This document shows, piece after piece, positions 373-21,587 of a stretch of 64,000 nucleotides of DNA. Under the pieces are notes generated by a model. The model made no database searches, was not told where the DNA came from, and saw only the letters and a program-made list of their open reading frames with translations. The position numbers and the translations under genes are program-made. Position 1 is the stretch's first letter. Every line of letters begins with the position of its first letter. The stretch spans positions 1 through 64,000 of the forward strand of contig JACPSL010000012.1 in assembly GCA_016193285.1 (NCBI GenBank). Direction: 5' to 3'. The stretch comes from Candidatus Melainabacteria bacterium (GTDB taxonomy: Bacteria > Cyanobacteriota > Vampirovibrionia > 2-02-FULL-35-15).

Positions 373-1350
373 CTATTCTAATTTTTGTAATATTGAAACT
401 GCTGGTATGCAACCATCTGGTACATCCCATTTATATGAGAATGATTCGTTTTGTCTTGTGTTTAAAATGTTCCAGGATTTTTTAGATTGGTTCCAGGTAA
501 TTAGCTCGGGTATATTGTCACCATCTAAATCAGCTGAAAGCGGAATATCCTCCTTTCCACCAAATTTAATTTGATTACTTCCTAAGTTTCCAGCATAATG
601 GAAGTACCAAGTTTGATCTTCTGGTCTCCAAAAAACAAGATCACATCTTCCATCTGCATTATAGTCATTTGGGACAATTACATCCCATTCCTTACCGTGT
701 TGAATATGTTCACTTTGATTGTGATCAAATCCTGAACTTGATTTTACTATGTGCCAAAAACCATCTCCTGGTCTCCAAACAATTAAGTCTGATTTTCCAT
801 CACCATCATAATCAGCGCTAAAGGCAGAATCTTCATTAGCACCTTCATAAACTGTTTTAAGAACTTTATTCCCATCCTTGTCTACATCAGTTAAAAACCA
901 TAATTTGATGCTTGCTCTCCAAATAGCAGGCTCGTACTTTTTGTCGCCATCTATATCAGAAGGTATTGGCAAATCATTGATTGCTCCAAAAAAAACTTTT
1001 TGAGATGGTAGGCCAGGATTTGAGGACTGATATATAATCCATTGTGCTGAATCTTTGTGGAAGAAAGCAAAATCTGTTTTTCCATCACCATCGTAGTCAG
1101 CAAGTACTGGAATATATTCAGTTGCATTTTCAAAAAAGTTTGACTTGTAGAATTTATTGTCAGATGATTGTTGGTAAAACAAGGTACCACTTTTTGGATC
1201 CCAAACAGAAAGATCCTCTATCTCATCTCCATCAAAGTCAGAACCATAACAAGATAATGAAGCAAATAAAATTAGTTTGTCTTTAGTTAAGTCAAGAAAC
1301 CATGCTGGTAAGATAAGTAACAAAAAGGATAATACAACTGCAGCATTCAT
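373..1350 (-). CDS. FG-GAP/VCBS calcium-repeat protein, membrane-anchored or secreted
   Basis: 325 residues. An N-terminal hydrophobic segment (about residues 4-20) should act as signal or anchor. It is followed by six evenly spaced repeats (period about 47) whose calcium-binding loops begin near residues 38, 85, 132, 180, 229 and 274, e.g. DYDGDGKSDLIVWRP and DYDGDGKTDFAFF. This is the FG-GAP/VCBS pattern of integrin-alpha-like beta-propellers, so an extracytoplasmic binding role is expected; the ligand is unknown. The ATG overlaps the stop of the upstream membrane protein gene (ATGA at 1347-1350), which fixes the start and implies translational coupling to that GT-C-like protein. No enzymatic motif is visible. 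Confidence 0.85.
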   Translation of the reverse strand: MNAAVVLSFLLLILPAWFLDLTKDKLILFASLSCYGSDFDGDEIEDLSVWDPKSGTLFYQQSSDNKFYKSNFFENATEYIPVLADYDGDGKTDFAFFHKDSAQWIIYQSSNPGLPSQKVFFGAINDLPIPSDIDGDKKYEPAIWRASIKLWFLTDVDKDGNKVLKTVYEGANEDSAFSADYDGDGKSDLIVWRPGDGFWHIVKSSSGFDHNQSEHIQHGKEWDVIVPNDYNADGRCDLVFWRPEDQTWYFHYAGNLGSNQIKFGGKEDIPLSADLDGDNIPELITWNQSKKSWNILNTRQNESFSYKWDVPDGCIPAVSILQKLE

Positions 1351-3206
1351 GCTATATGCTCCGCTTGCGTTCTAGTTTTAGTTATTTCTTTTTCAATTAT
1401 ATTTTTCAGATTTATTTGACCTAGGTATTTTGTAAGTAACAATAAAAAGACTATTAATGCTCCAAAGCTAATGTACAAAGAGATTTTACGAATTGGTGTA
1501 TTTTCAAAGCGTACTGTTATCTCATGTTTCCCGCCAGGAGCTTCAAAAACCATAGCACCGCTTTTAGGATCAATATTAATAATTGTGTTTTTCCCATCAA
1601 TGTAAACATTCCATCCAGGGAAAAAGAAGGTTCTCAATCTAACTTGATGTGGTGTAGGAGAAAAAATCTCAAACATTCTCTCATGTGACAACCATTTTTT
1701 TATTGTTATATCTATGTAGGGGTTAGTAGATTGTATAGCAGGTGAAAAATCATGTCTTAGATCTGTTTGCCTCCAATCCGGATCCCCTGTGATATTTGGC
1801 CTATATTCATCACTTGCCCAACTAATGCTAATTGCAGATTTAAGAAGATTTTCTTCTGGTACCCATCCCCAATGATACATGTTTATAAAATCAACATATA
1901 AAAGCAAACAAAAAGTAAATCCAGTAGCATAAATTATAATTTTGTAACCATAAATGTCAAATTTTTCTTTTAAGATTTTTCCAATTAAATCAAAAGCATA
2001 CACTAAAATAACCACACCAAATGTAAGGACAAATGTAGTAAACCTCCAAGGGAATTGAATTGTTTGAAGCGGCTTAATCATAAGCCATACATACAAAGAA
2101 ACAGGAGTCATCATTAAAAAAGAAATTACGAACATCAGTGAAGCCATTTTTATTCTAAGTGGTTCTATAAAATAAAGTTTTACTTTCCCCCAGTTTAAGA
2201 GCAAAGTTACAAGGCAGGTAAGAACAACTAGAGAAAATAGTGCATTGCTTACTTCATAATATCTATGATCAAAAATTGCCCATGCATATCCATCATCTCT
2301 GTGCCTGTCTAAGTATGTGTACAGGAAATTTTTAGAAAAATCCCAAAGAGGACCCTGTGTAAGGATTTCATCTGTGTGGACAAATCTTTTTTCAAGGCAT
2401 GCAGGGAGCAAATAAAAACTACTAAGTGCAACCCCAAATCCATAACTTAAAAAAAACCACTTAACAAACTTTTTTGTTCTGTATAGTAGCAAGCTAAGAA
2501 AAAAGTATGGAACACTTAAAAGTACAAGAACGAAAGCTGTTGCTAAGTGAGATAAAGCAAGACAAGCAAAACCTGTTGATGTAATTAAAAATGATTTTAA
2601 ATCAAACTCTTTATTCTTATCAAAACTATCAATGCCATATAAGGTAAGAAATAAAAATGGTATGGCAATGGTACTATTTGGCCAGTTCGTGTTATAGATA
2701 TAAATATGAATTGCAGGAGAAAAAATTACAAAGGCACAAGCAAGAATACTAGCAACAGGTGAGCCATGTCTTCTTAGATATAAGTAACCAAAAACAGTGG
2801 ATAAGAGCATTGGTGTTATATATATCCATTTGATTGAAAGTAAGGGATTTCTAAAAATTAAATCTATTAAAACAAAAAAATAATAAACTAGTGGTGCGTA
2901 GTAGTTAAAAATAGGTAAACCATATCCACTTGTATGAGCATCAATCCATCTTGGTAGCCATTGTCCCTGCCAAAAACATCTCTTAAAGTTATAAACATGT
3001 TCCATGTGAATATGCCAGTCAGCATGGCTTGGAATACTTTTACCAAAAATCATTGGGCCACAAGAAATGAGAGTTAGCAAGACAAGAAAAACAATTCTTT
3101 CCATTCTATTTCCAAGGAAGTGATATCCTTTTACTTCGTGTTGTATAGGTGATTCAGCGGTTGGTTCAGTTTGGCTTATAGTTTGATTTTCTGTGCTTTC
3201 AATCAT
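1347..3206 (-). CDS. polytopic membrane protein, PTPS-related/GT-C-like glycosyltransferase
   Basis: 619 residues with a cytoplasmic N-terminus, about a dozen membrane segments from residue 35 onward, a periplasmic C-terminal domain (about 470-585) and a final membrane helix. The first loop reads SHADWHIHMEHVYNFK, then YGLPIFNYYAPLVYYF, typical of the '6-pyruvoyl-tetrahydropterin synthase-related' membrane family (YfhO/GT-C type), which is thought to move sugars from lipid carriers. The acidic/histidine loop (ADWHIH) is a likely active-site region. It is followed by the coupled FG-GAP gene at 373-1350. The donor and acceptor are not deducible. A related protein lies at 15747-17432. Confidence 0.8.
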   Translation of the reverse strand: MIESTENQTISQTEPTAESPIQHEVKGYHFLGNRMERIVFLVLLTLISCGPMIFGKSIPSHADWHIHMEHVYNFKRCFWQGQWLPRWIDAHTSGYGLPIFNYYAPLVYYFFVLIDLIFRNPLLSIKWIYITPMLLSTVFGYLYLRRHGSPVASILACAFVIFSPAIHIYIYNTNWPNSTIAIPFLFLTLYGIDSFDKNKEFDLKSFLITSTGFACLALSHLATAFVLVLLSVPYFFLSLLLYRTKKFVKWFFLSYGFGVALSSFYLLPACLEKRFVHTDEILTQGPLWDFSKNFLYTYLDRHRDDGYAWAIFDHRYYEVSNALFSLVVLTCLVTLLLNWGKVKLYFIEPLRIKMASLMFVISFLMMTPVSLYVWLMIKPLQTIQFPWRFTTFVLTFGVVILVYAFDLIGKILKEKFDIYGYKIIIYATGFTFCLLLYVDFINMYHWGWVPEENLLKSAISISWASDEYRPNITGDPDWRQTDLRHDFSPAIQSTNPYIDITIKKWLSHERMFEIFSPTPHQVRLRTFFFPGWNVYIDGKNTIINIDPKSGAMVFEAPGGKHEITVRFENTPIRKISLYISFGALIVFLLLLTKYLGQINLKNIIEKEITKTRTQAEHIA

Positions 3207-3209
3207 AAT

Positions 3210-3244
3210 TTAGACCATAGACTATAGACCATAGACCATAGACC
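3210..3244. repeat. five-unit heptamer cassette (ATAGACC family)
   Basis: Five consecutive 7-nt units (one TTAGACC, one ATAGACT, three ATAGACC) make 35 nt in the gap between the membrane protein gene and the GT2 gene. The same unit type, also five units long, occurs inside alaS and the UbiD-like gene. A shorter pair of TTTCTCA-type heptamers lies just after it (about 3266-3282). Confidence 0.85.
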
Positions 3245-3282
3245 TGGGGAAAGAATTCTTTTTAGATTTCTCATTTCTCATC

Positions 3283-4029
3283 TTAGAATTCTTTTATATT
3301 ATACTGGTAAATAAATCTTACTTTTAACACTTCAAGAAACATTTTTATTGAATCCCTGAGCATGCTTACTTTTGAATCTTCAACATGGTACCAGTTTACA
3401 CCAACCTCTTTGATCTTATATCCAAGTCTCTTTGCTAAATAAAGATGTTCCACGTCGAAAGTATAATTAAAACATTTCTGTAAAGAAGCTAACTTTTCTG
3501 CTACATTTTTTTTATAAAGTTTAAAACCACATTGAGTATCTCTAATAGTTGCAAGATTTAAAGTTGCAAGGATCAAGTGAAAAGAAAACCCGATAAACCT
3601 GCGCTTAAAGGACATTTTTACTTTTGTAACCTCATCTTTTAAAACCCTGGAACCAACTACCACGTCATGTCCTTGATCAATCCAGGGTAAAAGTTTTTCT
3701 ATCTCTTCAATTGGGCTTGCACCATCAGCATCAGTGTATAAAACAAGCTCGGTAGAAATATCTTTAAATGCTTCTCTTACAGCGTAACCTTTACCACGAT
3801 TAATTTCATAACTAATAACGCTAAAGCAATTTTTATTTTTACTTATATTTTTAATCCAGTTATTAACTACCTCGTTAGTGTTATCTCTGCTGCCATCATT
3901 TACTACAATTACTTTAAATAAATTTGATCCTGATATTTTAGTTATGTAACTATCAATATCGTTTAATGTTCTTAGAATTCTTTTTGATTCATTGTAGGCA
4001 GGAATGACGATTGAGAGAGATTTGTTCAT
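3283..4029 (-). CDS. GT2 glycosyltransferase, dolichyl/polyprenyl-phosphate sugar transferase type
   Basis: 248 residues, a single GT-A domain without added membrane helices. Visible motifs are VIPAYNESKRI (nucleotide-binding start), VVNDGSRDNT, the metal-binding LYTDADGASP near residue 95, VVVGSR and DTQCGFKLYKK, all typical of DPM1/ALG5-like enzymes that make polyprenyl-phosphate sugars. Such products are the donors used by GT-C membrane transferases, which fits the neighbours. The ATG overlaps the stop of the upstream ATPase gene (ATGA at 4026-4029). The sugar is not known. Confidence 0.88.
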   Translation of the reverse strand: MNKSLSIVIPAYNESKRILRTLNDIDSYITKISGSNLFKVIVVNDGSRDNTNEVVNNWIKNISKNKNCFSVISYEINRGKGYAVREAFKDISTELVLYTDADGASPIEEIEKLLPWIDQGHDVVVGSRVLKDEVTKVKMSFKRRFIGFSFHLILATLNLATIRDTQCGFKLYKKNVAEKLASLQKCFNYTFDVEHLYLAKRLGYKIKEVGVNWYHVEDSKVSMLRDSIKMFLEVLKVRFIYQYNIKEF

Positions 4030-5402
4030 AATGTTAGTAAGTCCTTTGCATCAATTAATTCAACATTTTTTACTCTTGCAAAATCAATAGTGTCTTTTGT
4101 AAATCCACCTGAAGAGAAACAAAGAAATCTTGGAGATTTAATTCTTAGCACCTCAGCTTGTTTTGCAAGATCTGAAATTATGCTTGGTCCGTAAGGTTTT
4201 GATGACCATTTACATGAAGCTAGTGTATTAGTCTTGTCTGTGTTGTATGTAAAAATGTCGATTTCAACTTGTCCTGTTACAAATCTTCCCATTTTTTTTA
4301 TCATAAATTCCTTGTTATGTGGATAAAATCTACGAACGTATTCCATACAAATACTCTCAAAAACTGAAAACCCAATATGTGTGTCCAGATTTGGATAAAT
4401 GACTTTATTAAAAACGTCTTTTTGGTTTCCTAACTTTAACAGGCTTTGATTAGGAAGGATGAACCTGTACCAGAAATAAAATAAAGGATCTTTTAATTTG
4501 TAAATTGCTTTTCTGCTTTTCATTTCGTCTTCATTTACAGGTATTTCTTTCTGCATATAACCTAGTTCAATAAGTATTTTTAAATATTGGCTGATTTCAC
4601 TTGCACTCATGCTTAATCTAGAAGTAATATCTTTCATTTTTGTAGCTCCTGTTGAAACTGATAACAATATTTGTGAGTACTTAGTAATTTCTCTTAATTC
4701 GCTTTTTAAAATTAGATTTGGCTCATCAAATAAACGTTCATTCGGGGGTAAAATTTTTTCTATAACATTTTCTTCCCATGACATTTTTTCATCTAACAAG
4801 GATAAATATGCCGGTGTACCACCAAAAATTGAGTAAGTATAAAGCTTTTCTACAGGATTATATTTTTCTACAAATAAGCTTGCATCTATATAATTAAATG
4901 GTTCCAACTTTAATACGCCAGTAATTCTTCCATACAAAGGTGCTTTATATGATATTACTTTGCTTTCCATAAAACTTATGTGAGAGGTACATAAGATTAT
5001 TACCATATTTGACTTTGAACCTTTTTGATCCCAAAACCTTTGCAACTTTGACATCCAGCCCTTATGCTCATTAGCAATAAACTGTATCTCATCAAGGACA
5101 ATTAACAATCTCTCATTCTTGGATTTTTCTGAAAGTAATTCAAAAGCATCCTCCCAATCGTTAAATGTGAAAAACTCTTCTATTAATTTATTGTGTAAAA
5201 GAACCTTAGAGAAATCATTTAAACTATCCTTCGCAGTAGCTTCAGATGCTTGAAAATAAACACTGGTTTTATTTTTAATTAATTCAAGAAGCAATGTAGA
5301 CTTTCCTATCCGCCGTCTTCCATATATAACTAAGAGCTCAGGCCTTTTTGAACCCCATTTCTTGTTTAAAAAGTCTATTTCGTCTTTTCTATTTATAAAC
5401 AT
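4026..5402 (-). CDS. AAA ATPase with C-terminal nuclease-like domain (archaeal-type ATPase/DUF234)
   Basis: 458 residues. Walker A GRRRIGKSTLL lies near residue 28 and Walker B LLIVLDEIQFIA near 100. A winged-helix stretch follows (about 260-300), and the C-terminus has the PD-(D/E)XK-like order 'QVEIDIFTYN...LASCKW' (E/D then C-K). This is the archaeal-type ATPase plus DUF234 architecture, often found in accessory DNA. The function of the family is not established; DNA-related or toxin-like roles have been proposed. Two abutting palindromes lie directly upstream of the ATG. It is translationally coupled to the following GT2 gene although no functional link is obvious. Confidence 0.85.
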   Translation of the reverse strand: MFINRKDEIDFLNKKWGSKRPELLVIYGRRRIGKSTLLLELIKNKTSVYFQASEATAKDSLNDFSKVLLHNKLIEEFFTFNDWEDAFELLSEKSKNERLLIVLDEIQFIANEHKGWMSKLQRFWDQKGSKSNMVIILCTSHISFMESKVISYKAPLYGRITGVLKLEPFNYIDASLFVEKYNPVEKLYTYSIFGGTPAYLSLLDEKMSWEENVIEKILPPNERLFDEPNLILKSELREITKYSQILLSVSTGATKMKDITSRLSMSASEISQYLKILIELGYMQKEIPVNEDEMKSRKAIYKLKDPLFYFWYRFILPNQSLLKLGNQKDVFNKVIYPNLDTHIGFSVFESICMEYVRRFYPHNKEFMIKKMGRFVTGQVEIDIFTYNTDKTNTLASCKWSSKPYGPSIISDLAKQAEVLRIKSPRFLCFSSGGFTKDTIDFARVKNVELIDAKDLLTL

Positions 5403-5404
5403 TT

Positions 5405-5450
5405 AGTATAATCACGATTATACTATTAGCATAATTTAGATTATGCTAAT
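5405..5450. promoter_or_regulatory. two abutting palindromes at the ATPase promoter
   Basis: First palindrome: arms AGTATAAT/ATTATACT (5405-5412 and 5417-5424) with a CACG loop. Second: arms ATTAGCATAAT/ATTATGCTAAT (5425-5435 and 5440-5450) with a TTAG loop. They lie 3 nt upstream of the ATPase start codon (minus strand) and contain TATAAT-like boxes, so they look like an operator overlapping the promoter. The regulator is unknown; autoregulation is an inference. Confidence 0.55.
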
Positions 5451-5539
5451 AAAACAGGACTTTGTTATTAAACTTTATACAACAGGGAGCAAAAGTTTTA
5501 GTTTTTTAGTCATTTCTTGTTATAAGGGGAGAGTGTGAA

Positions 5540-8500
5540 ATGAGTTTTATAGTTGCAATTGTAGTTAGTTTAATATTAGTTTTTTTATTTGGGTTTATTG
5601 GCCACATAGTTACAAAAGAATTAAAACTAGGTGAAGAAAATAAGCTCTTATCTCATCTTATAAAAATTGCTTTGGGTGGCGCAGCATTTTTAATAGTAAT
5701 TAATTTGGCTGGTAACATTCTAAAAGATTTTAACTGGGCTTTGATTCTTACTTTTTTAGTAATTATTGCTTTAGCTACCTGGAAAAACCAAGAAACAATA
5801 AGTGTTTTTAAAAAGCTAAACAAAAGTTCTGTAAAAGAATTCTTTTCTAAGATAAAACAAAGCACTGATAAATATTTCTGGATTCTAATTGGAGTGATTA
5901 ATTTTATTTATGGTATTACTGCTTTTTCCACAACCAAGTTGGATCACTTTGGGCTTCCTTCTGGACATGTTTTTACTATAAATCAATTATTGGCTGGGAC
6001 CTATCCACCTAAATACTCTTTTCTACCTAACTTAGCTCAAAAATATCATTATGGAGCAGACATTCTTGGAGCAATAGTATCAAAGTTTTCTAACTGTCAT
6101 CCGGAAATTTCACTTGATGTTTTACTAATTGTTTTTTTGAATCTAAGTTTTCTTGCTCTTTATGCACTTGCAATAAAGTTTTGTAATTCAAGTCCAGTAA
6201 ACAAGTATTTAGTACCTTTTGCAGCGTTTTTAGCATGGGGACCAATAACAAATTTATTTATTAAAAATCCTGGAGAAAATATTCCACAAAAGTTTCTTGA
6301 GAAGATACAGTATCTAACTCAAAGCAGATTAATTGATGCAGCACAATGGTCTGGGCTTGTGCTTCATTGGTTTTTTGCCCCACCAATTGGAATTGGAATT
6401 TTCTTTTTTTTAATTGCTTTGTATTTGGTTTATAACTTCTTGGATGGGAAAAAAGGTTACAAATCTTTGTTTATTTTAGCAATCTTTCTTAGTAGCTTAG
6501 TAATTATAGATATTACAAAATTTATCGTAGTGATTGCTGGATTACTAATATACATAATCTTTAAAGCATCTGAATTAATCTTTGAAGAACCTAAATCAAT
6601 AGCTGAAAAAGACTTACAGTTTTCATTTAAAAGTTTTGGTGTATTGTTTGTTGTAATTTTAGTTCTTTGCTTAATTCATGAGAATTGGTTTACTTTCAAC
6701 AAAGCCTTTGTTCCACTTATGTCATTTTACAAATTTGGCACTACAAATTTACCAAGTGATTATAATCCAGTGAAAGCCAGTCTAATACTACTCATTATTT
6801 TTAGCTTTGGATATTACTTGGCTAATAAGCAAAAAAATAATTGGGTTTCATTTCTTATACCTTATTTTATAGTTAGTATGGTAACTCCATTTCTTTTTAC
6901 GATACCCAATGCTGGTATTGGCAAATTATTTATGGCAGGAAACTACATTGGAGCATTTGCAGTACCTTTAACAATTGATTTTGTAAAAAACAAATTTAAT
7001 TTTAAAGAACAGAAACTAACTGTTTTTTACATTGCTATCTTTATACTACTTAGCTTCAGCACATTTATGTTTTGGGCATTTGGAGATAAGACTAAACCAA
7101 CTTTTTTAACTCAAGGTGGTAAATTAAAATTTTCAGGTAAGCAAGTATTCCCCTACAAAGACAATTTAGAAGAAATGGAATTTGCAAAAAATCTGAGATC
7201 AAATAAATTTAAAAACTCAACAATATTAAGTGAACCCATGTATGGTGGAATATTAACTGTTAATTCAGGATTATTTGGTACATGGCCAATTATAGGTAAT
7301 TTCTACGAAGAAAATCCAATTAAAAAGGAAGTTATTGATTCAGTACTTGCAAATTTTAACTCTCTATTTACACTTAACAGTAAACTGCTTCAAGGACAAA
7401 GGATTCGTATACTATACTTAACCCCTAAACTAGTAAGATACATTTTGTCACCCAAAGCAAGACAGGTCTTATTAGCTACTGAATTAAATGGTGGCGGAAA
7501 ACTAATATACTCAAACAATAAAGATCTAGCTCAATTAAAGGAGACATATTTTATTGATCCTAAAAAACTAACTTATGACTCAGTCCTAAATTATGGTAAG
7601 AAGTTAAAAAAATATCTTAAGTCTGCAAATTTAAAAAACAATCACCCCATGTACTTAAAACAAATTGCAGAATGTCCATATTTTGGTATTTATAATGCAA
7701 TGTCAAATGACTTTGACGGAGATAAAATTTCAGACATAGCATTTTTCGATTATAATTCAAAAAAATGGACTACTATTTATGGAAAGGATCTACAAGAGGA
7801 AGAAGTTGATTTAAATAGTTCTATATTCGCAAATTATAATGGTAACTTGTTTACTCCTGTTCCATCAGATTATGATGGTGATGGAAAAACAGATATAGCA
7901 TTCTTTAATGAAAATAATGGAACCTGGAATATCTTACAATCCTCAAATTTGCAAGTCGATTCAAGCAAACAATTCGGGATACTTATAGAAGAACTTCCTC
8001 TGCCTGCATATCTGGATGAGGATTTAAAAACAGATCTATCTTGCTTTAATGCTAACCATGGAACATGGTATTCTGGAACAACAACTAAAGGTACTTATAG
8101 TAATAACTTTGGTCTTTCGCCATTAGATATTCCTGCTTTTGCAGATGTAGACGGGGATAAGCAGGCTGATTATATTATTTACAAACCAGACACAAAATTA
8201 CTCGAAGTTTATCTGTCAACAAAATCATTTGACAAATCTGATCACTTAAAACTAATCATAGGAAATAATAATGCAAGGCTTATCCCTGGAGATTATGATG
8301 GTGATAAAAAAGTTGATCTGGCAGTATGGACGCCAGAAAGTGGAGAATGGGAAATAGCTTATGCCAAAGATTTGTTAACAGCAAAAAGTAAACCACAAGA
8401 ATCAGCACCTTTTATTGGGTGTGGAGCAACAAGACAGTTAAATGAGGATTCTCAGCCATGCTTAACAAAAATAGTAAAGCTAGGGAACGCTGGTGATATT

Positions 8501-8659
8501 CCAATACCAGGAGATTATAACGGTGATGGAAAAACTGAAATTGCAATTTATCATATATCTATAGGACAGCTTGAAATTTTGCTTGATGGTGAAGTCAAGA
8601 AAAAAATCGATTTGTCAAAATACAAAAATTTAACTCCAGTAAGTTTTATTGGAGTATAA
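5540..8659 (+). CDS. fusion of polytopic GT-C-like membrane protein and FG-GAP repeats
   Basis: 1039 residues. Residues 1 to about 520 hold roughly a dozen hydrophobic helices with an early loop TTKLDHFGLPSGHVFTINQL and KYHYGADILGAI, resembling GT-C/DUF2298-like membrane glycosyltransferases. A soluble region follows (about 520-715). The C-terminal third carries six FG-GAP/VCBS repeats with calcium loops near 724, 777, 823, 868, 917 and 991, e.g. DYDGDGKTDIAFF and DYDGDKKVDLAVW; the third is degraded (LDEDLKTD). The start has the spacing GGGGAGAGTGTGAA-ATG. The fusion joins in one chain what its neighbours encode separately. Substrate unknown. Confidence 0.82.
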   Translation: MSFIVAIVVSLILVFLFGFIGHIVTKELKLGEENKLLSHLIKIALGGAAFLIVINLAGNILKDFNWALILTFLVIIALATWKNQETISVFKKLNKSSVKEFFSKIKQSTDKYFWILIGVINFIYGITAFSTTKLDHFGLPSGHVFTINQLLAGTYPPKYSFLPNLAQKYHYGADILGAIVSKFSNCHPEISLDVLLIVFLNLSFLALYALAIKFCNSSPVNKYLVPFAAFLAWGPITNLFIKNPGENIPQKFLEKIQYLTQSRLIDAAQWSGLVLHWFFAPPIGIGIFFFLIALYLVYNFLDGKKGYKSLFILAIFLSSLVIIDITKFIVVIAGLLIYIIFKASELIFEEPKSIAEKDLQFSFKSFGVLFVVILVLCLIHENWFTFNKAFVPLMSFYKFGTTNLPSDYNPVKASLILLIIFSFGYYLANKQKNNWVSFLIPYFIVSMVTPFLFTIPNAGIGKLFMAGNYIGAFAVPLTIDFVKNKFNFKEQKLTVFYIAIFILLSFSTFMFWAFGDKTKPTFLTQGGKLKFSGKQVFPYKDNLEEMEFAKNLRSNKFKNSTILSEPMYGGILTVNSGLFGTWPIIGNFYEENPIKKEVIDSVLANFNSLFTLNSKLLQGQRIRILYLTPKLVRYILSPKARQVLLATELNGGGKLIYSNNKDLAQLKETYFIDPKKLTYDSVLNYGKKLKKYLKSANLKNNHPMYLKQIAECPYFGIYNAMSNDFDGDKISDIAFFDYNSKKWTTIYGKDLQEEEVDLNSSIFANYNGNLFTPVPSDYDGDGKTDIAFFNENNGTWNILQSSNLQVDSSKQFGILIEELPLPAYLDEDLKTDLSCFNANHGTWYSGTTTKGTYSNNFGLSPLDIPAFADVDGDKQADYIIYKPDTKLLEVYLSTKSFDKSDHLKLIIGNNNARLIPGDYDGDKKVDLAVWTPESGEWEIAYAKDLLTAKSKPQESAPFIGCGATRQLNEDSQPCLTKIVKLGNAGDIPIPGDYNGDGKTEIAIYHISIGQLEILLDGEVKKKIDLSKYKNLTPVSFIGV

Positions 8660-8663
8660 AAGT

Positions 8664-10589
8664 CTATTCCCACTCAAGAAAAATTTCACTGTATCCTGGA
8701 TATGCAGGATACTGTAATTCTATTTTACCTGTTGATGTAATCGAAAACGGTTCTTCAAAATTAAGAGCAATCTTATTGACAAGCATTTTATCTAATTTAA
8801 TTCGCCATATCATTTTTTCTGGATGAATAAACTCGTAAGAATTGCTGAATACTTGGTTGTCATCTAAATATGCTCTTAAAGAAAGTTTCCGCCAGCCCTG
8901 AATAGAATTTGGTGCTCTTGTAATCAACCAAATAGATTTAATATGTGCAGGATGCTGTGGAGTTATATTTACAGAAGCAGGTCCAGGACTTCTTGCAGCC
9001 CAGCTTGTTGCAGGATTATTGTCAAAAGCTTTGTTTACATTGAAGTCGCTGTTAAATTCGCTTGAGGAAGTCACGATTAATGGAATGTATAACATTTTTT
9101 CTTTTGCCGACTGCCATGAAGGGGATATTTCGTAAATGATATCTGAAACAGGTTTGAACCATGCCTCAAGTTTTTTAAACTGTCCAGGATCCTGTGTTCT
9201 AAGCCCATCATAACAACCGATTATTCCCAAAGATATTCCTGTTAATATACTCCAGAATGCAGACAAAACAGCAAATGAAGTAACCAACTTATTTGCATTA
9301 ATTTTCTCATAGAAATAAAACCAGACCAAAGAAGCACAAAGTATCAAACACGCAGAAAAGTCCATTACATAACGCCAGGTTACACTGGTAGCAATCAAAA
9401 GAATACCTATATTTAAATAGGCAGGAATCAAAATTATCCAAAATTCAATCTGTTTTAAAATAGTATCCTCTTTTATGAAGCGTTTAATATTCAGCTTCTT
9501 ATCAAAGCAGTAGAAAGCTGGTGCTAAAAAAATCAATAAAATAAAAGGAATCCCTGTAAACATCCCAACTGTTTTTTCAAAGTAGTAAGCCTGTGGAACT
9601 TGAATGAATGTCGGAACAGTATAGTTTATGTGTATAAATGGGAACGCAGAATTTATAATAGGCAACTGAAAAAAATAAAAATAACTATTAGGAATTATAT
9701 TTTCAAAATTGAAGAATTTATCTGTGCTAGTATTTAGAACACATGTAAGCACATAATGTAAACCAAACTCTATGGGGTTTTCAAAACGAAGGAAATTATA
9801 AACAAAAAGAGAAGCAAGGCACATTAAAAAAGGAATTGTTAAATAAGCCCCTAATAAAATTTTTGAATGTTTAGTCAGACTCTGTTCTCCTTTTGTTAAT
9901 TTCCACCAAACTAAAGGTAATAATATTCCAGACAAAATAAATTGTGGTCTACATCCAATTGATAATCCCAAGAATAAACTAGCTAGTATAAAAGTTCTTT
10001 TTGAAGAACACTCCTTGCCTAAGGAACGACACAAAAAATAAAGCGCCCCCGATAAAAAGAAAGCACCTCCTGAGATAGCAACTTCATACATATCAGCACG
10101 CCTGAGATTATATAGAGCCCCATTAGCAAATGCTAATACTAAAACCGATAAAAGCAACATCCATTCCGGGATTCTCTTAAAATACTTATTTTTTAAGTGA
10201 TATATTAAAGCAACAGAGAAGATAAATAAACCAAAGGAAAAAATAAAAACTACAAGACTATCTGGGATTTTATTTCCAAGTAAAATTCTAAGTGGTATAT
10301 AAAGGAATATCAACGGGACAGGACCATGAGATAAATAATACTTTCCCTTATATAATGAAGCATCATGAAGCCTAAGTCCCCAATTATAAGCAGGATTATA
10401 TGGATCTGACAAAGCTAATAGTTCTTTTGGCGGTTCTATCGGTAAATTAATCTTACCTGCAAGAAATGCATCAGTAAGTAAATTATACATAGTATTATGC
10501 TCTCGATCTAATTGAAAGCTATTTGTACCACCTGTTGCATCCCAGAGATAAAAAAGAAAAACAAAAACAATAATATATCGTAATTTCAT
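8664..10589 (-). CDS. GT-C-like membrane protein with C-terminal discoidin-like domain
   Basis: 641 residues from the ATG at 10589. A TTG 21 nt upstream would add MVGDIIF, but neither has a clear ribosome site, and MKLRYIIVFVFLFYLWDATG reads as a natural first helix. About eleven membrane segments span residues 1-470. The first loop holds LDREHNTMYNLLTDAF and YLSHGPVPLIFLY, as in mannosyltransferase-like GT-C proteins. The last 140 residues (NVNKAFDNNPATSWAARSPG and following strands) match the pattern of a F5/8 type C (discoidin) carbohydrate-binding domain. It converges with the fusion gene, leaving only 4 nt between the stops. Confidence 0.75.
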   Translation of the reverse strand: MKLRYIIVFVFLFYLWDATGGTNSFQLDREHNTMYNLLTDAFLAGKINLPIEPPKELLALSDPYNPAYNWGLRLHDASLYKGKYYLSHGPVPLIFLYIPLRILLGNKIPDSLVVFIFSFGLFIFSVALIYHLKNKYFKRIPEWMLLLSVLVLAFANGALYNLRRADMYEVAISGGAFFLSGALYFLCRSLGKECSSKRTFILASLFLGLSIGCRPQFILSGILLPLVWWKLTKGEQSLTKHSKILLGAYLTIPFLMCLASLFVYNFLRFENPIEFGLHYVLTCVLNTSTDKFFNFENIIPNSYFYFFQLPIINSAFPFIHINYTVPTFIQVPQAYYFEKTVGMFTGIPFILLIFLAPAFYCFDKKLNIKRFIKEDTILKQIEFWIILIPAYLNIGILLIATSVTWRYVMDFSACLILCASLVWFYFYEKINANKLVTSFAVLSAFWSILTGISLGIIGCYDGLRTQDPGQFKKLEAWFKPVSDIIYEISPSWQSAKEKMLYIPLIVTSSSEFNSDFNVNKAFDNNPATSWAARSPGPASVNITPQHPAHIKSIWLITRAPNSIQGWRKLSLRAYLDDNQVFSNSYEFIHPEKMIWRIKLDKMLVNKIALNFEEPFSITSTGKIELQYPAYPGYSEIFLEWE

Positions 10590-10652
10590 AAAAATAATAT
10601 CGCCAACCAAACTTTTAGTTTAAAAATCACTCAATCTACTCCTGCATTAATA

Positions 10653-11375
10653 TTAATCCTTATATTTTAATAAAAAATTGTTAATTTTTATTCTTAGCAA
10701 ATCGATTGGAGCATCATAAAAACATTTGAATAAACTTATTCTACTTACTCTATTTTCTGGTTCGGGTGATACCTCAATTTGGTTAATTCTCATTTTTAAA
10801 ACTAGAGCCATATACAATAGTTCAATATCAAACATACCACCATTGATCTGCTGTCTTCGTACTAGTTGCATAACCGCTTCTTTCTTAAAAGCTTTGAACC
10901 CACACTGTGTATCATAAAAAAAAGTAGAATTAAAAATCAATATTCTCTGAAGCAGAAACAAACATATTGAAAGAATATATCTGAGAGGACTTCTACCTTT
11001 CCTATTTAACAACCTTTTTCCTATCACAATATCATAATTGTTATTTATAATCTCACTTATGAAAACATCAATTTGTACGAGAGGGATTAACATATCTGCA
11101 TCTAAATAAAATACAATGTCTCCAGTAGATTCTAGAATACCTACCTTTACAGCGGCCCCTTTTCCATTTCTTGCTCCTTGAATAATCTTGAGATTTGCAA
11201 TCTCATTTTGCTTTATATACCTATTTATTAAATTAAAGGTGTCATCTGTACTATCATCAACAATAATAATTTCATAGTTATATTTCTCGACCCAGGACAA
11301 GAGTTTTTTAATAGATTGGAGAATATTTTCTCCTTCATTATAGGTAGGTACTATAAATGAAACTTTTTTATTCAT
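10653..11375 (-). CDS. GT2 glycosyltransferase, polyprenyl-phosphate sugar transferase type
   Basis: 240 residues, GT-A fold only. Motifs: FIVPTYNEGENI, IIVDDSTDDT, the metal-binding VFYLDADMLIP, VIGKRLL and DTQCGFKAFKKEAV. It parallels the GT2 at 3283-4029 and likely charges a polyprenyl phosphate for a neighbouring GT-C enzyme (inference). Its ATG overlaps the stop of the methyltransferase gene (ATGA at 11372-11375), so the pair is translationally coupled. Confidence 0.87.
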   Translation of the reverse strand: MNKKVSFIVPTYNEGENILQSIKKLLSWVEKYNYEIIIVDDSTDDTFNLINRYIKQNEIANLKIIQGARNGKGAAVKVGILESTGDIVFYLDADMLIPLVQIDVFISEIINNNYDIVIGKRLLNRKGRSPLRYILSICLFLLQRILIFNSTFFYDTQCGFKAFKKEAVMQLVRRQQINGGMFDIELLYMALVLKMRINQIEVSPEPENRVSRISLFKCFYDAPIDLLRIKINNFLLKYKD

Positions 11376-12073
11376 CTAGGTTTACAAATTCCAATATTGT
11401 ATATGTTCAAGTTGATAACTCTGATATTAAATGGCAAAAACACTTCTTTTGATAAATTAAAAAAATTCTTTAACTCGCTTGTTATACTTTTATACTCATT
11501 TATATGTTCTTCTTTACCAAGCCATTTCATGTAATCTAGATTTTTAAACTTAGTATTCATATACCTTTCAGTAGTCAGTTGCCTGCCTAAGTTGATCAAA
11601 AAAGATGAATCTAAGGGTATTATATAAAGAAAAATCCCATCTTCTTGCAGATACTTTAATACGTTACGAAATATAATTTGTAAATGTTCATTGGAAAAAT
11701 GTTCCAATGCCTGAATAGCTGTGACAACATTATATTTTTTCTCTAAATTCCAGTCAGCATCTAAAACACTCTTATGAATAAAGCTATGCTTGTTATAGTT
11801 TTGTCTTGCTTCATTTATGAAATTTATATTATGATCTATTCCAGTATAAATTTCAAAATCGTTTAGAAAATCACAATTATGTCCAAGCCCGCAACATAAA
11901 TCTAGAATATCAATTTTTTCTTTTTTTGATTTCTTTCTGTACTTTTCCTTCAAATCCTTTATTGTCCAATGCCCCCAGTTTGACATGAATGAAGTAAGGG
12001 GGTTTTTATAGATATATTTTTGGATTTCTTCTCTTATTTCATTACTGTAGACTTCATAAAAAAGATTATTCAT
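11372..12073 (-). CDS. class I SAM-dependent methyltransferase
   Basis: 233 residues. The SAM-binding motif I is ILDLCCGLGHNCDFL near residue 57, motif II is TGIDHNINFI, and AIQALEHFSNEHLQ followed by LKYLQEDGIFLYIIP gives the later core strands of the Rossmann-type fold. No membrane segment. Located between the FG-GAP genes and a GT2, it probably modifies a sugar or glycan (inference from context). The substrate is not deducible. Confidence 0.8.
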   Translation of the reverse strand: MNNLFYEVYSNEIREEIQKYIYKNPLTSFMSNWGHWTIKDLKEKYRKKSKKEKIDILDLCCGLGHNCDFLNDFEIYTGIDHNINFINEARQNYNKHSFIHKSVLDADWNLEKKYNVVTAIQALEHFSNEHLQIIFRNVLKYLQEDGIFLYIIPLDSSFLINLGRQLTTERYMNTKFKNLDYMKWLGKEEHINEYKSITSELKNFFNLSKEVFLPFNIRVINLNIYNIGICKPR

Positions 12074-12113
12074 AGTTATAGTTTATTTGCTTTAGTAATT
12101 ATTGTTATGTTTC

Positions 12114-14099
12114 TTATTTATTTATAGAGTAATAAAAACCAGGACAATTTACCAATTTTATACTCTTTGAAACAAATAAATTATCACTCGCCAACTTTGC
12201 TAGTTTCCAATTCTTAGAAGAAAAACCTGCATTTATAGTTCCACTGGCAGTGTCAAGAAATACGATATCTGATTTCAAATCACCATCTATATCAGCTGTA
12301 AATGAATACCCATTTATCCCATTTCTAAAATGATAAGGATATATTTTACCATCAGAACTAGAGGAATAAATGAACTCATTATTATATGGATCTAAAATAG
12401 CAGGATCAACTTGCATATCACCATCAAAATCACTGCTTAACGGGGTTATAAATACTGCATTGTGAGACTTATTTTCTTGAAGAGCTACTTCAATTTCTTT
12501 TAGATTTGAAGATTTTACAATAACATATAGAACTTTATCTGGGTTAAAAACACAAAAATCATCAATTCCATCACCATCATAATCATTAATCTGTGGTATT
12601 CCGTTATTCCCGGCTATTGGAGTTAGCATAATTATTTGAATGTTTTCAGGAGATGATATACCGAGGTAACGTATGTAAAAAGTCTGATTGCTTGCTCTAT
12701 AAGCACCTAAATCCTGGATAGAGTCATTATTAAAATTACCAACCACAGGTTTATCATTTTTATTGCCAACCTGAATAGCAAATTTATATCCTAATCTACT
12801 TGAATCGCACAAAAAAACACCTGTATTAATTGACCAGAGGCAATTATCAAGAACGTAATCACCATCTGTATCAAAAACAAAAGGTATGTAGTTATCCATC
12901 TGATTTAACTTTAAGAGTTTCTTTTCTCGACAATCATTTTTATATAACCTTTGAGCTTTTAATAATTTTTCAAATTTGCAATAAATTATATTTCCATGAT
13001 CATAATAAGCCAGCACAGGTCTGTAGTTAAAATTAATCAGAGGACTTGAAATTGAATTATTGTTATAAAGTAGTTTCATTAACAAAAAATTATTGACCGG
13101 AAATGAGTTGGCAATTTGCGGATAGTAATAAATATTTTTTCTTACAGAGTTATGGAGCAAGTTGAATGTTAATAACCTTTTTGAGGAACTACTCCAAAAA
13201 GCAAGTTCGCTTGCTCCATCACCATCATAATCTGATGAAACAGGGAAATAATCATCTTTTAAACTAAGCTCTTTTTGGATAACCTCAATAGTTTTATCTG
13301 ATAATAATTCCCCACTTGAACTAAATAATAATAAAACTTTATTGTTTGTGTGTTCCCATACACACACATCAGCTTTACCATCTTGATCATAATCTGCAGG
13401 AATTGGCAGGAAATTTTTACCGCCCAATTTTTTTCTAGCCAGAGTGCCATCTCTTGACGATTTAATATTCCAGAAACCATCTTTGGAACTGTAAACAGCA
13501 AAATCAGCTTGCCCATCTCCATCATAATCCTTCGGCACTGGAATATTCTGCCCCATACCCAATTTAACTTTTATAAAAAGATTATTTGAACTTAATATCC
13601 CTTGAAAAGTATTATCTCTGGTTCTATAAAATATGAGATCGAATTTCCCATCACCATCATAATCACTTGGTAAAGGAATATCTTTATATTGACCTAACTT
13701 GGTAACATTTGCATTAGGATTGTTTCCATTTTTTATGTGCCATTCACCTTCTCCTTTAAGGTTAGTTCGATATACGCCGAAATCAAGAATAGAATCACCA
13801 TCAAAATATCCTACAAATGGAATATCACCTACTGTGCCCAAATTAAATTTGGAGTGTTTTATGTCCGATGAAGTTATTGTTTCAAAGAAGCAAGGTTCCA
13901 AAAATTTATTGAATCCTGACATTGAGGATGTATTCCAAAATATAAAATCAGATTTTCCATCCTTGTTTATATCAAGCAGATTGTTTATTTTTTGACATGG
14001 AGTTTTTATAGAAAATGATGATTGAAAATCTGGATTCTTTGTACACCCTGACAAAAACATAAAGACAAAAATTTGTAAAATGATAATTCTAGAAATCAT
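12114..14099 (-). CDS. large FG-GAP/VCBS repeat lipoprotein
   Basis: 661 residues from the ATG at 14099. An earlier ATG (14186) would overlap the upstream gene by 77 nt, whereas this start follows that stop by 10 nt and gives a clean lipoprotein signal (MISRIIILQIFVFMFLSGC, lipobox LSGC). At least eleven FG-GAP units follow, e.g. DYDGDGKFDLIFYR, DYDGDGQADFAVY, DYDQDGKADVCVW, DYDGDGIDDFCVF and DIDGDLKSDIVFL, with a degenerate stretch near the middle. That number suggests two propellers. The protein should sit on the cell surface or outer membrane. In tandem with another FG-GAP gene at 14110. Confidence 0.85.
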   Translation of the reverse strand: MISRIIILQIFVFMFLSGCTKNPDFQSSFSIKTPCQKINNLLDINKDGKSDFIFWNTSSMSGFNKFLEPCFFETITSSDIKHSKFNLGTVGDIPFVGYFDGDSILDFGVYRTNLKGEGEWHIKNGNNPNANVTKLGQYKDIPLPSDYDGDGKFDLIFYRTRDNTFQGILSSNNLFIKVKLGMGQNIPVPKDYDGDGQADFAVYSSKDGFWNIKSSRDGTLARKKLGGKNFLPIPADYDQDGKADVCVWEHTNNKVLLLFSSSGELLSDKTIEVIQKELSLKDDYFPVSSDYDGDGASELAFWSSSSKRLLTFNLLHNSVRKNIYYYPQIANSFPVNNFLLMKLLYNNNSISSPLINFNYRPVLAYYDHGNIIYCKFEKLLKAQRLYKNDCREKKLLKLNQMDNYIPFVFDTDGDYVLDNCLWSINTGVFLCDSSRLGYKFAIQVGNKNDKPVVGNFNNDSIQDLGAYRASNQTFYIRYLGISSPENIQIIMLTPIAGNNGIPQINDYDGDGIDDFCVFNPDKVLYVIVKSSNLKEIEVALQENKSHNAVFITPLSSDFDGDMQVDPAILDPYNNEFIYSSSSDGKIYPYHFRNGINGYSFTADIDGDLKSDIVFLDTASGTINAGFSSKNWKLAKLASDNLFVSKSIKLVNCPGFYYSINK

Positions 14100-14109
14100 G
14101 CAATTTCTT

Positions 14110-15618
14110 TTATTCAAGACAAACCTCATCATATTTATAGTTCTTGCTAGATTGAAAAAGACTGCAAACAGCAGTAACTGGATCATATAAAATCAAATCA
14201 GCCATAAAATCAGAATCAATATCAGAAACAAAGGGTATTCCATCAACTTTTTCATTTAAAGGGAAAGAAATATTTTTATTTAAAGCTGAAGAAGAGTAAC
14301 TGAATGCTTTATTAGCTGGATTTATAAATCCAAGCTCACATTTGCCATCCCCATCAAAATCTCCTACGACAGGTTTACCTTGGTCATTAAAGTGCAAATC
14401 TATTGATTTATTAGTTGATGACAACAAGGTTGAAAAGCTCATGTTATTTAAATTTAACATCCCTTTTTCTTTTATAAAGTCACCATCAAAATCACAAAGT
14501 ATGATTCCTTTGTTAACATTCAACATTCCCTTGTTAACTACAGATCTTAAGTTAGCTAAAGATTTCAAATCCCCATCTTTAGCCACAAATTTTCTCAATA
14601 AAAAGTAATTAACAGGTTCAGAATTTTCAGATACATTCACATTAAATTCTTCATAGTTTATTTCACCTTTTCCAATCTTAAACAAATGAACAGATTTTTG
14701 CTTGTCTTCCCAGAATGCAAGTTCATATTTTTTATCCCTGTCGATATCTAGTAATAACGGAAATATTTTTTTACCTGTTAATTTTTTATAAACTTCAGAT
14801 TCTACCCTATTAGAGGAGCTGTGGATTTTTGATGTAAAAACGATTTTGCATTTATTGTTATTAAAATTCCATACAGCTAAATCAGCCTTTCTGTCACCAT
14901 CATAGTCTGAGGGTATTGGAAGAAAGTTTTTTCCTCCTAGCATTATTTGTTCTATCAATCCTGTCTTTGAAAACTTAATAAGCCATTCCCCACTGGATGG
15001 TCTATATACGGAAAGGTCAATTAAACCATCTCCATCATAATCACTAGGAGTTGGTATGTCCCCTCTTATTCCTACATAATCTTGTAATATTTTATTCATA
15101 TAAGACAAGATTCCATAAAAACCAGCATCTTTTGGTTTATAAACTACAAAATCATAGATTCCATCACCATCGTAATCTCCTGGAACAGGCAAATCACCTA
15201 TTTCACCATATCTGTTAGTGAATGAAACTTTTGTCGAGCCATTAATCAAATTCCATTCATTGCCATTTTCTTTATATCTGTAAATGCCATAATCAATTAT
15301 CCCATCTCCCGAAAAATCTCCACATACCGGCATATCCCCGATCATGCCCAAAGACACTATTTCTTTATTACTTTTATCTTCTATGCTTATAATTTCGAAG
15401 AATGAAACCTTGCCGACAAATTCAGCATCCGATTTTAATGAATTACGAAAATTCCAAAATAAAAGTTCTGATTTATTATTATTTATTTGTGGTTTTAATT
15501 TATCATTGTGTAAAAAAGCTGACTTAAACTCATTAAATAAATTTCTGCAACAAGGAATGCTAAATAACAAAATTATTAAAATTAAAAACAAAATTTCAAT
15601 TCTACGGTTTTTATTCAT
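14110..15618 (-). CDS. FG-GAP/VCBS repeat protein with N-terminal membrane anchor
   Basis: 502 residues from the ATG at 15618, which has TTGGAA just upstream; a TTG six nt earlier is in frame but less likely. An N-terminal hydrophobic helix (about residues 10-25, ending PCC) is not a canonical lipobox. About nine FG-GAP units follow, including DYDGDGIYDFVVYKP, DYDGDGLIDLSVYRP, DYDGDRKADLAVW and DFDGDGKCELGF; one is degraded (FIKEKGML). It is 10 nt upstream of the second FG-GAP gene and likely co-transcribed with it, and divergent from the PTPS-related membrane gene at 15747. Confidence 0.84.
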   Translation of the reverse strand: MNKNRRIEILFLILIILLFSIPCCRNLFNEFKSAFLHNDKLKPQINNNKSELLFWNFRNSLKSDAEFVGKVSFFEIISIEDKSNKEIVSLGMIGDMPVCGDFSGDGIIDYGIYRYKENGNEWNLINGSTKVSFTNRYGEIGDLPVPGDYDGDGIYDFVVYKPKDAGFYGILSYMNKILQDYVGIRGDIPTPSDYDGDGLIDLSVYRPSSGEWLIKFSKTGLIEQIMLGGKNFLPIPSDYDGDRKADLAVWNFNNNKCKIVFTSKIHSSSNRVESEVYKKLTGKKIFPLLLDIDRDKKYELAFWEDKQKSVHLFKIGKGEINYEEFNVNVSENSEPVNYFLLRKFVAKDGDLKSLANLRSVVNKGMLNVNKGIILCDFDGDFIKEKGMLNLNNMSFSTLLSSTNKSIDLHFNDQGKPVVGDFDGDGKCELGFINPANKAFSYSSSALNKNISFPLNEKVDGIPFVSDIDSDFMADLILYDPVTAVCSLFQSSKNYKYDEVCLE

Positions 15619-15746
15619 TTCCAATCTTTTAATATAATGTATTATTAAATACTTGAAAGAGTTTAACTGATATTTGTAAGTATTACCTTCGGAAGCTTAG
15701 TTGATACTTAGTTTATCTTCAATTTGAATTTCAATATTCTGTAAAA

Positions 15747-17432
15747 ATGCCCCCGAATTTAATAACTAAAAAGTTGTCCTTAGCAAAAGTTGCTACCACT
15801 GGATTGATAGTCTTTATATTTTTATATGTTCCTTACCATACTCTCAAACCGTTGTTTCTTTGTGAAACCTGGCATGGCGGTCATGATGGCGGTGGGACGG
15901 TTTTTAATGCATGGAGTATAGTAACAATTCTTCAGGAGAATTTCCATCTACCACTTTGCTGGTTACCAGAAAATTTTGGTTATAAAGGTAACCCTTTTTG
16001 GCAATATTACCAGCCACTTCCTTACCTAGTTATTTACTTGTGCTCTATTTTTGTTTCAGCACTATACAAAACTGATGTTTATCTTTCACTAAAACTAAGC
16101 ACATATCTATCCTTTGTTATATCAGAGCTATGTATGTTTTTCCTGTTAAAAACGATTTTTAAAAATTCACCAAATGCAACTTTAACAAGTATTTTTGGCT
16201 CTCTGATTTATTTATTTGCACCGTATAGATTTATTGACTTATATGCTAGAAGTGCTTATTCAGAGCTTTGGATATTCTCCTGGATACCTCTTTATTTTTT
16301 GGGCTTCTACAAATTGTTTTTTTTAAAGGATAAAACAGGTTGTGTGCAAATTGCGGTTTCGATGTCACTTCTTTTATTAAGTCATTTTATGCCTTCCATT
16401 TTCTTTTTAATTATTCTATACATAGGATTCCTGATTTTTAAAGTGGTTAGAAAAGAACTTGGTAATTTTATAAAAGAAGATCTTGTAATCATAAAATGGT
16501 GTGCGATCTCAAATCTAATCGGGATGTGCATTTCTTCTTTTTATACTTTACCTCTTATCAATTGTAAAAAATATTTGTTTGGTGATATTGCTGGTTTTGA
16601 TGGGATGAGTTTAGAGGCTGTAAAGTACCACATTGTTGTTGCAGTAAATATGTTAAATCCATTGAGCTACAACTATCATTGGCGAGTTGGACAAGTATAT
16701 TTTCTGTCAATATTATTCTTAAATTTTATGCTTCTTAGCAAGAAAAAACTTAGGTTTAGACATCTCCTGTTTTTTTTAAATGTTGTTATATTCATAGCCA
16801 TGTTTTTTATTTGTGGAAATATCCTTTGGGAGCATCTACCACCAATTTTCTATAGTTTGCAATTTCCCTGGCGCCTATTTGTTGTTTACTCATTTTTTGG
16901 TTCTCTTATAATAGCACTTATAGCTAACGAATTTAAACTTACATTGCCAATATTAGTTCTAATATTATCTCTTCATATTTATACAACAAATAGATTTATT
17001 CCAGGCTCTATAGGTCCCGGGTTTGTGTATAACTATTACAATATAGAATCCTGGATTAATGACATTTATAAGAAGCAATTTTCAAGTTTAAATGGTGGCA
17101 GCTTTGCTCATGGTTTTTTACCTAAGACATCGTTTCCTGTACTTTTTAATTTTTCACCTTCACCAGATACAACCGGTGATGAAAATAATCCTACAAACTA
17201 TCTAATTATTAAACCTGGTATAAACATTCTTTCACATAAGAAAAATGCAAGTACTTTTATTTATGAGTTGTTTTTGGAAAAATCTAACTTTATAGTCTTA
17301 AGACAATACTTCTATCCAACATGGAAAGCCTACCTTGATTCAAAAGAGACAGATTTATATTTAACTGATTTAGGTTATATTGGGGTTGATGTTCCAAAAG
17401 GCAAACATATTCTGGAGATTAGATCAAACTAG
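15747..17432 (+). CDS. polytopic membrane protein, PTPS-related/GT-C-like glycosyltransferase
   Basis: 561 residues, about eleven membrane helices. The first periplasmic loop reads TWHGGHDGGGTVFNAW with a second motif FWQYYQPLPYLVIYL, matching the arrangement in the 1347-3206 protein (ADWHIH, then FNYYAPLVYY). A soluble C-terminal domain follows, ending in a strand-rich region (YFYPTWKAYLDSKE...VPKGKHILEI) like the YfhO-type periplasmic domain. Unlike the 1347 protein there is no final helix. Divergently arranged with the two FG-GAP genes; probably part of the same glycan system (inference). Confidence 0.78.
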   Translation: MPPNLITKKLSLAKVATTGLIVFIFLYVPYHTLKPLFLCETWHGGHDGGGTVFNAWSIVTILQENFHLPLCWLPENFGYKGNPFWQYYQPLPYLVIYLCSIFVSALYKTDVYLSLKLSTYLSFVISELCMFFLLKTIFKNSPNATLTSIFGSLIYLFAPYRFIDLYARSAYSELWIFSWIPLYFLGFYKLFFLKDKTGCVQIAVSMSLLLLSHFMPSIFFLIILYIGFLIFKVVRKELGNFIKEDLVIIKWCAISNLIGMCISSFYTLPLINCKKYLFGDIAGFDGMSLEAVKYHIVVAVNMLNPLSYNYHWRVGQVYFLSILFLNFMLLSKKKLRFRHLLFFLNVVIFIAMFFICGNILWEHLPPIFYSLQFPWRLFVVYSFFGSLIIALIANEFKLTLPILVLILSLHIYTTNRFIPGSIGPGFVYNYYNIESWINDIYKKQFSSLNGGSFAHGFLPKTSFPVLFNFSPSPDTTGDENNPTNYLIIKPGINILSHKKNASTFIYELFLEKSNFIVLRQYFYPTWKAYLDSKETDLYLTDLGYIGVDVPKGKHILEIRSN

Positions 17433-21521: not shown

Positions 21522-21522
21522 A

Positions 21523-21579
21523 ATTTTATAAAATTAAATTCTGTCAATGAACTGACATTATTATACCAAATTCTGTCAA
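21523..21579. promoter_or_regulatory. palindrome and direct repeat upstream of the ATPase
   Basis: ATTTTATAAAAT (21523-21534) is a perfect palindrome next to the start codon. AAATTCTGTCAA occurs twice (21536-21547 and 21568-21579), the first overlapping a TGTCA/TGACA inverted pair. The arrangement looks like an operator, but no regulator can be assigned. Confidence 0.4.
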
Positions 21580-21587
21580 CAAATAAT

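Follow-up and report, generated by a model that had tools for sequence, protein, structure and literature searches.

A conserved gene cassette in a family of Melainabacteria that couples and fuses FG-GAP beta-propellers with putative GT-C-type membrane proteins

In three-component glycosylation systems, a GT2 enzyme charges polyprenyl phosphate, a flippase turns the lipid-linked sugar, and a GT-C enzyme carries out the transfer (PMC8035078). Some GT-C enzymes have a lectin-like C-terminal module of their own, as described for AftD (PMC8035078) and as cited for EmbC in PMC11127046, and a review raises the speculation that GT-C enzymes of smaller size depend on a further protein to bind the acceptor (PMC8035078). 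Among beta-propellers, the PVL lectins belong to the VCBS propeller superfamily (PMC8023676). A survey of bacterial integrin-type propellers reported that none of the bacterial sequences it had collected has a membrane-anchoring segment (PMC3192720). A pairing of FG-GAP and GT-C proteins was found in no paper of the literature searched, a scope with most subscription journals outside it.

The window analysed here covers the opening 64 kb of an 88-kb contig. The contig comes from a Melainabacteria genome of 1.81 Mb, in an uncultured lineage that is related to the cyanobacteria but is not photosynthetic. All of the open reading frames considered are present at their coordinates (Table 1), and the four polytopic proteins, the FG-GAP genes, the ATGA overlap between 1347-3206 and 373-1350 and the fusion at 5540-8659 are as the original prediction had described them. 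FG-GAP repeats (PF13517/PF01839) score above the curated cut-off in 373-1350, 5540-8659, 12114-14186 and 14110-15624, and these four genes hold all 11 of the PF13517 matches in this genome. The cassette was compared across the window's genome and 10 other genomes of the bacterial family (n = 11), about 280 other genomes of the class (278 for the PTPS1 search) and a sample of the phylum Cyanobacteriota. Its anatomy is real and conserved across the family: the predicted co-occurrence of the two kinds of protein was borne out, in that they are coupled or fused in every family genome. Phyla beyond Cyanobacteriota were covered by a single genome-contig scan, sensitive to close relatives only, whose one match was a Melainabacteria relative (MFRN01000026), and fusions may exist elsewhere. 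In the stretches read, no polytopic GT-C-like gene neighbours the FG-GAP genes found in other Melainabacteria (G018, G023, G030, G042) or in cyanobacteria (G331, G380, G384). Two of these Melainabacteria, from another family (G042 and G018; L083:1457-3725 and L084:75-2379), have a secreted FG-GAP gene that divergently adjoins what by eye is an HldE/RfaE-type heptose-phosphate kinase-like gene. Very large FG-GAP proteins (2800-5300 aa) occur in relatives of the window's genome (L055:5169-13556, L056, G004:C1:298525-313089) and none occurs in that genome itself.

Table 1. Features of the cassette and its surroundings, with positions in the window.
Feature	Coordinates	Strand	Basis and remarks
Small FG-GAP propeller protein, 325 aa	373..1350	-	PF13517 2.5e-15; N-terminal membrane anchor or signal segment
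PTPS1, PTPS_related polytopic membrane protein	1347..3206	-	PF10131 3.5e-10
DPM1/AglJ-like GT2, 248 aa	3283..4029	-	PF00535 9e-29
Fusion protein, 1039 aa	5540..8659	+	DUF2298-related polytopic half ~1-515; soluble linker 515-715; FG-GAP propeller ~720-1039
Polytopic membrane protein	8664..10589	-	C-terminal F5_F8_type_C (discoidin/CBM-like) weak, E 0.039
Second GT2, DPM1/GtrB-like	10653..11375	-	PF00535 6e-26
SAM methyltransferase, same sub-operon as the second GT2	11372..12073	-	PF13489
FG-GAP lipoprotein A, double-length	12114..14099	-	PF13517 2e-12
FG-GAP lipoprotein B	14110..15618	-	PF13517 1.4e-7
PTPS2, second PTPS_related membrane protein	15747..17432	+	PF10131 in 5/5 orthologs
HddA-like kinase and HddC-like guanylyltransferase	18539..20304	-	NCBIfam HddA 1.4e-56, HddC 2e-38, both below equivalog cut-offs
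SIS-type isomerase (GmhA-like) and HAD phosphatase (GmhB-like)	25357..26566	+	PF13580, PF13242

Three of the start codons in Table 1 were revised. By inspection, the protein at 8664 likely begins at 10589 and not at 10610, and lipoprotein B likely at 15618 and not at 15624. The reading frame 12114-14186 most likely starts at 14099 (MISRII...LSGC), a start chosen because of the lipobox alignment, and with it a 77-bp overlap with 14110-15624 disappears.

PTPS1 and the small propeller form the coupled pair. Their genes share 4 bp in the window (1347-1350), and among the nine family genomes in which both genes are readable the overlap is 4 bp in eight and 1 bp in one; an overlap conserved in this way points to translational coupling of the two proteins. 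PTPS1 was found in 11/11 family genomes, with a PF10131 match in 8/8 of the orthologs, and at E 1e-10 in 0/278 other genomes of the class. The small propeller has an ortholog in every family genome where that place is assembled, carries six DxDxDG-type motifs at a spacing of 45-49 residues, and is as conserved as PTPS1, with a mean column identity of 70% in each case. The first extracellular loop of PTPS1 contains an invariant D63-W64-H65-x-H67, and its C-terminal module appears YfhO-like by eye. PTPS1 is probably a GT-C glycosyltransferase; the families PF10131 (PTPS_related) and DUF2298 are both presumably members of the GT-C clan. As a separate observation on this end of the locus, three stretches in relatives (L042:4657-7289, L047:16553-19247 and L051:4278-7044) have the small propeller gene or its neighbouring lipoprotein gene followed by genes for P-II, for an ammonium transporter, for an ornithine-cyclodeaminase-like protein and for a protein of ~1400 aa without a Pfam match; this synteny is conserved and in the window is lost to the contig start.

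The fusion gene lies divergently to that of PTPS1. Orthologs of the fusion, 38-51% identical over the matched stretch, occur in 10/10 of the other family genomes (11/11 with the window's own), one of them truncated at the end of its contig; the divergent copy of G005 lies at a contig end. Searches of about 280 further genomes of the class, and of the rest of the phylum sample, turned up no such fusion. An assembly artefact was considered and rejected, since orthologs of both halves are present in 10/10 other family genomes. The locus had been predicted to encode four GT-C/PTPS-related proteins, a count that goes too far: PF10131 is matched by 1347-3206 and by the orthologs of 15747-17432, and by neither of the other two. 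In hhalign comparisons the fused membrane half shows homology to DUF2298 proteins (96.6%, E 4.7e-10) and no relation to PTPS1, so that the label PTPS-related was discarded for it; a direct Pfam scan of this half in the 11 fusion orthologs gave no match, and the DUF2298 (PF10060) cut-off was not reached. The polytopic protein 8664-10610 likewise matched no GT-C profile, its F5_F8_type_C match being the sole one, and 8664-type proteins show no relation to PTPS1 by hhalign. Relatives of the 8664 type lie near the fusion in several family genomes.

The DUF2298 relatives of the fused half are proteins of 760-780 aa, which these bacteria encode in further glycan clusters. Their first loop reads DxxxH...NxYPP...YHYGxD, with D122, H126 and D158 invariant (n=5). 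In the fusions the corresponding histidine (His143) is invariant, YP and mostly G-x-D are kept, and an acidic D174 is present in 10/11, but the Asp of DxxxH (H-4) is missing from its place in 11/11, the nearest Asp, at 135, being found in 9/11. Because this first Asp is lost from its place, the fused half may have altered activity or may be catalytically dead. It could then act as a receptor or scaffold without catalysis, in which a degenerate DUF2298/GT-C body would anchor the propeller beside the active PTPS enzymes or sense a glycan. The absence, throughout the fusions, of an aspartate invariant in five relatives, and the loss of the nearest alternative in two of the fusions, fit such a role, but the retention of His143, YP and D174 is what would be expected of a working pocket, and the divergent G005 copy sits at a contig end; we consider a receptor or scaffold very unlikely. 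As an aside on the DUF2298 proteins, in relatives several adjacent polytopic proteins of 680-800 aa, some with TPR parts, stand beside them (L089, L090, L091); these clusters are a second dense GT-C-like region.

The fusion has fourteen membrane segments when residues 166-184 (mean hydropathy 0.08) are counted as outer loop. With loops summed by hand, Lys/Arg per residue is about 0.20 in the inner loops versus about 0.08 in the outer ones, a charge bias by which the first loop and the propeller are predicted to lie outside. An AlphaFold model built from a 4-row alignment gave pLDDT <50 for nearly all residues 1-720, and only the propeller part was moderately confident, with blocks mostly at 60-84 and some weaker stretches. 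This part shows six DxDxDG-type motifs; the third (D826) is a degenerate one, placed by means of the alignment. The nearest structures to the modelled propeller by Foldseek were a KICSTOR subunit, presumably the FG-GAP subunit ITFG2, and propellers of the PVL type. GlcNAc lectins were among the matches (2bwm, 2bwr, 4up4, 4tqm and 5mb4), with E 2.5e-5 to 4.5e-5 for 2bwm, 2bwr and 4up4 on a modest model, as were Tc toxin propellers, integrins and the biofilm protein Bap1. Similarity to PVL is moderate (TM about 0.45, rmsd 7), and at such a value with a low-confidence model it is the fold class alone that is supported, a VCBS/FG-GAP-superfamily propeller being predicted for the C-terminal part of the fusion. 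For the small propeller, a PDB sequence search gave weak matches to a secreted esterase only, PVL was not found by its profile, and a single-sequence AlphaFold model (pLDDT 44) was set aside. A search of a viral structure library gave no useful match.

An alternative is that the propellers serve as adhesins at the surface or as matrix proteins, chance neighbours in a glycan locus whose membrane proteins make an unrelated polysaccharide. The match to Bap1 speaks for it. The family also encodes numerous further FG-GAP proteins of 800-5300 aa at other places in its genomes, and in the stretches read those of other Melainabacteria and of cyanobacteria have no GT-C-like neighbour. Chance neighbourhood is nevertheless hard to reconcile with a fusion in 11/11 genomes and a conserved gene overlap; the window's genome has FG-GAP nowhere else, and a small propeller as conserved as the enzyme (70% each) does not resemble a diversifying adhesin. 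We regard this alternative as distinctly unlikely.

The GT2 at 3283-4029 is probably a polyprenyl-phosphate hexose synthase, the nearest NCBIfam models (AglJ, ArnC, dolichyl-P hexose and undecaprenyl-phosphate sugar transferases) all being matched below their cut-offs. It lies between the fusion and PTPS1, just upstream of the latter, in 8/11 family genomes and is missing from beside PTPS1 in G005, G006 and G010, with G006 having no match to it at E 1e-20. No hydrophobic segment is present in its 248 residues, and a GtrA-type flippase (GtrA_DPMS_TM, PF04138) is absent from 10/11 family genomes, including that of the window. The second GT2 and the adjacent methyltransferase have orthologs, 57% and 67% identical respectively, that adjoin the fusion in G010. 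Further along the window, the HddA/HddC-like and GmhA/GmhB-like genes are consistent with a supply of GDP-D-glycero-D-manno-heptose; the HddA and HddC models were matched below equivalog cut-offs, and the identity of the sugar is thus just a suggestion, with the pair at 25357-26566 placed in the heptose route as a plausible assignment. A transaldolase-type enzyme is also encoded near the cassette, and relatives of HddA/HddC lie near it in G001 and G006 too. The surface-glycan setting first proposed for this region is supported by the DPM1-like GT2 adjoining PTPS1 and by these genes resembling the heptose route.

Other genes of the region stand apart from the cassette. An AAA ATPase_2/DUF234 gene (4026-5402), with a 4-bp overlap with the GT2 gene, was rejected as a cassette member, since it lacks an ortholog in the other family loci; it is inserted in the window's genome alone. 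Two more tandem AAA ATPases, 26% identical to each other, lie inside the glycan region (20388-22996), and similar genes occur near the GmhA-like gene in G006 (L046 9099-11591). The gene pair at 23126-24572 is AbiEi/AbiEii toxin-antitoxin-like by eye, its second member being a nucleotidyltransferase. A dnaX-like gene (31374-32954) has repeated peptides PQNLETSK in its C-terminal part, possibly a repeat tolerated in coding sequence, and alaS (45219-47819) has a similar stretch, RLETIDQRPK.

PTPS2 is homologous to PTPS1 (hhalign 99%, E 9.6e-18), has an invariant H46-D47 in its first loop and is probably also a GT-C protein, although the copy in the window falls 0.7 bit under the PF10131 cut-off. 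Within the family it is confined to G000, G001, G002, G007 and G009, and full-length relatives of the FG-GAP lipoproteins, with a lipobox Cys invariant in 10/10, occur in exactly these five genomes, both being absent from the other six. The probability of this pattern would be 1/462 if the genomes were independent, which they are not, and the best combined tree needs two changes; with so few independent events, the co-occurrence of PTPS2 and the propeller lipoproteins is suggestive, and is not proof.

This covariation, and the overlap that couples one enzyme gene to one exported protein gene, would also be expected if the propellers were themselves the acceptors, exported proteins glycosylated by co-translated GT-C enzymes, with the fusion as an enzyme carrying its attached substrate. 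Against this, PTPS1 and PTPS2 are PTPS_related and not of the PMT or OST families, a polytopic chain that carries its own substrate in 11/11 genomes would be unusual, and inspection noted no Ser/Thr-rich glycosylation stretches in the propellers. Glycosylation of the propellers seems to us unlikely.

The reading preferred here, to which we give a probability of roughly 45%, is that of a periplasmic glycan-modification cassette of the multi-component kind in which beta-propellers are the acceptor-recognition part. The GT2 at 3283-4029 would load a sugar onto polyprenyl phosphate, the lipid-linked product would reach the outer face of the membrane via a putative flippase, and PTPS1, through the conserved Asp and His residues of its first outer loop, would transfer the sugar to a surface glycan. 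The anchored 325-aa propeller may bind this glycan or its growing end by means of a Ca-stabilised propeller and present it to PTPS1. The fusion would embody the same idea in a single chain, as a DUF2298-type membrane body with its own propeller, and PTPS2 and the two propeller lipoproteins could together make up an accessory set that serves a second linkage. The sequences show the anatomy, its conservation, the coupling, the fusion and the family assignments; the propeller fold and the outside location of the fused propeller are predicted, and enzymatic activity, glycan binding and the order of these steps are inferred. In the original prediction the propellers hold or present the glycan or acceptor, a hypothesis supported by the GlcNAc-lectin fold similarity of the model, the predicted outside location and the conserved coupling. 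Several observations count against the preferred reading: the absence of a GtrA-type flippase from 10/11 genomes, the GT2 missing from beside PTPS1 in three of them, the displaced Asp of the fused half, the moderate propeller scores and the few independent events behind the PTPS2/lipoprotein pattern. A propeller coupled to one GT-C-type protein and fused to another also matches what the idea of a separate acceptor-binder would predict (PMC8035078). Whether the cassette represents a new class of extracytoplasmic glycosyltransferase complex, drawing its acceptor specificity from an FG-GAP beta-propeller that is exchangeable, either as a subunit or as a fused domain, is a more tentative proposal, which we advance with considerable doubt.

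The cassette offers a candidate pair of enzyme and acceptor-binder, coupled in translation, alongside a natural fusion of both kinds of part, throughout one bacterial family. The question whether smaller GT-C enzymes rely on a second protein for acceptor recognition (PMC8035078) becomes testable with defined proteins. If true, the preferred reading would also point to a role for the membrane proteins of the PTPS_related and DUF2298 families, and to one for a bacterial integrin-type propeller.

Among known systems, the CsbB-GtcA-YfhO and Gtr three-component systems (PMC8035078) likewise have a polyprenyl-phosphate-sugar GT2 adjoining a polytopic protein of the GT-C type whose first loop contains acidic residues, and the cassette may, by analogy, work like them. 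It differs in lacking a GtrA-family flippase in 10/11 genomes, in a GT2 with neither membrane helices nor a GtrA_DPMS_TM partner, and in the addition of conserved propeller partners or a fusion; without that flippase and with no membrane anchor on the GT2, it is not counted as a three-component member. As in EmbC and AftD, a polytopic body is followed on the outside by a binding module, but the module here is an FG-GAP beta-propeller where theirs are carbohydrate-binding modules, and the fused body is DUF2298-related. PTPS1 and PTPS2 match PTPS_related (PF10131) and the fused half is homologous to DUF2298 (PF10060) proteins of the same bacteria, whereas that half matches no Pfam model itself, and the functions of both families are largely undefined. 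PVL-type lectins (2bwm, 4up4; PMC8023676) share the DxDxDG blade motifs, and several are among the best Foldseek relatives, but PVL has seven blades where six motifs are visible in the cassette propellers, and the latter are membrane-bound or lipoproteins. Finally, FG-GAP repeats are common to the cassette and to the bacterial integrin-type propellers surveyed earlier (PMC3192720), with the difference that in the cassette a polytopic membrane protein either carries the propeller as a fused part or is made along with it.
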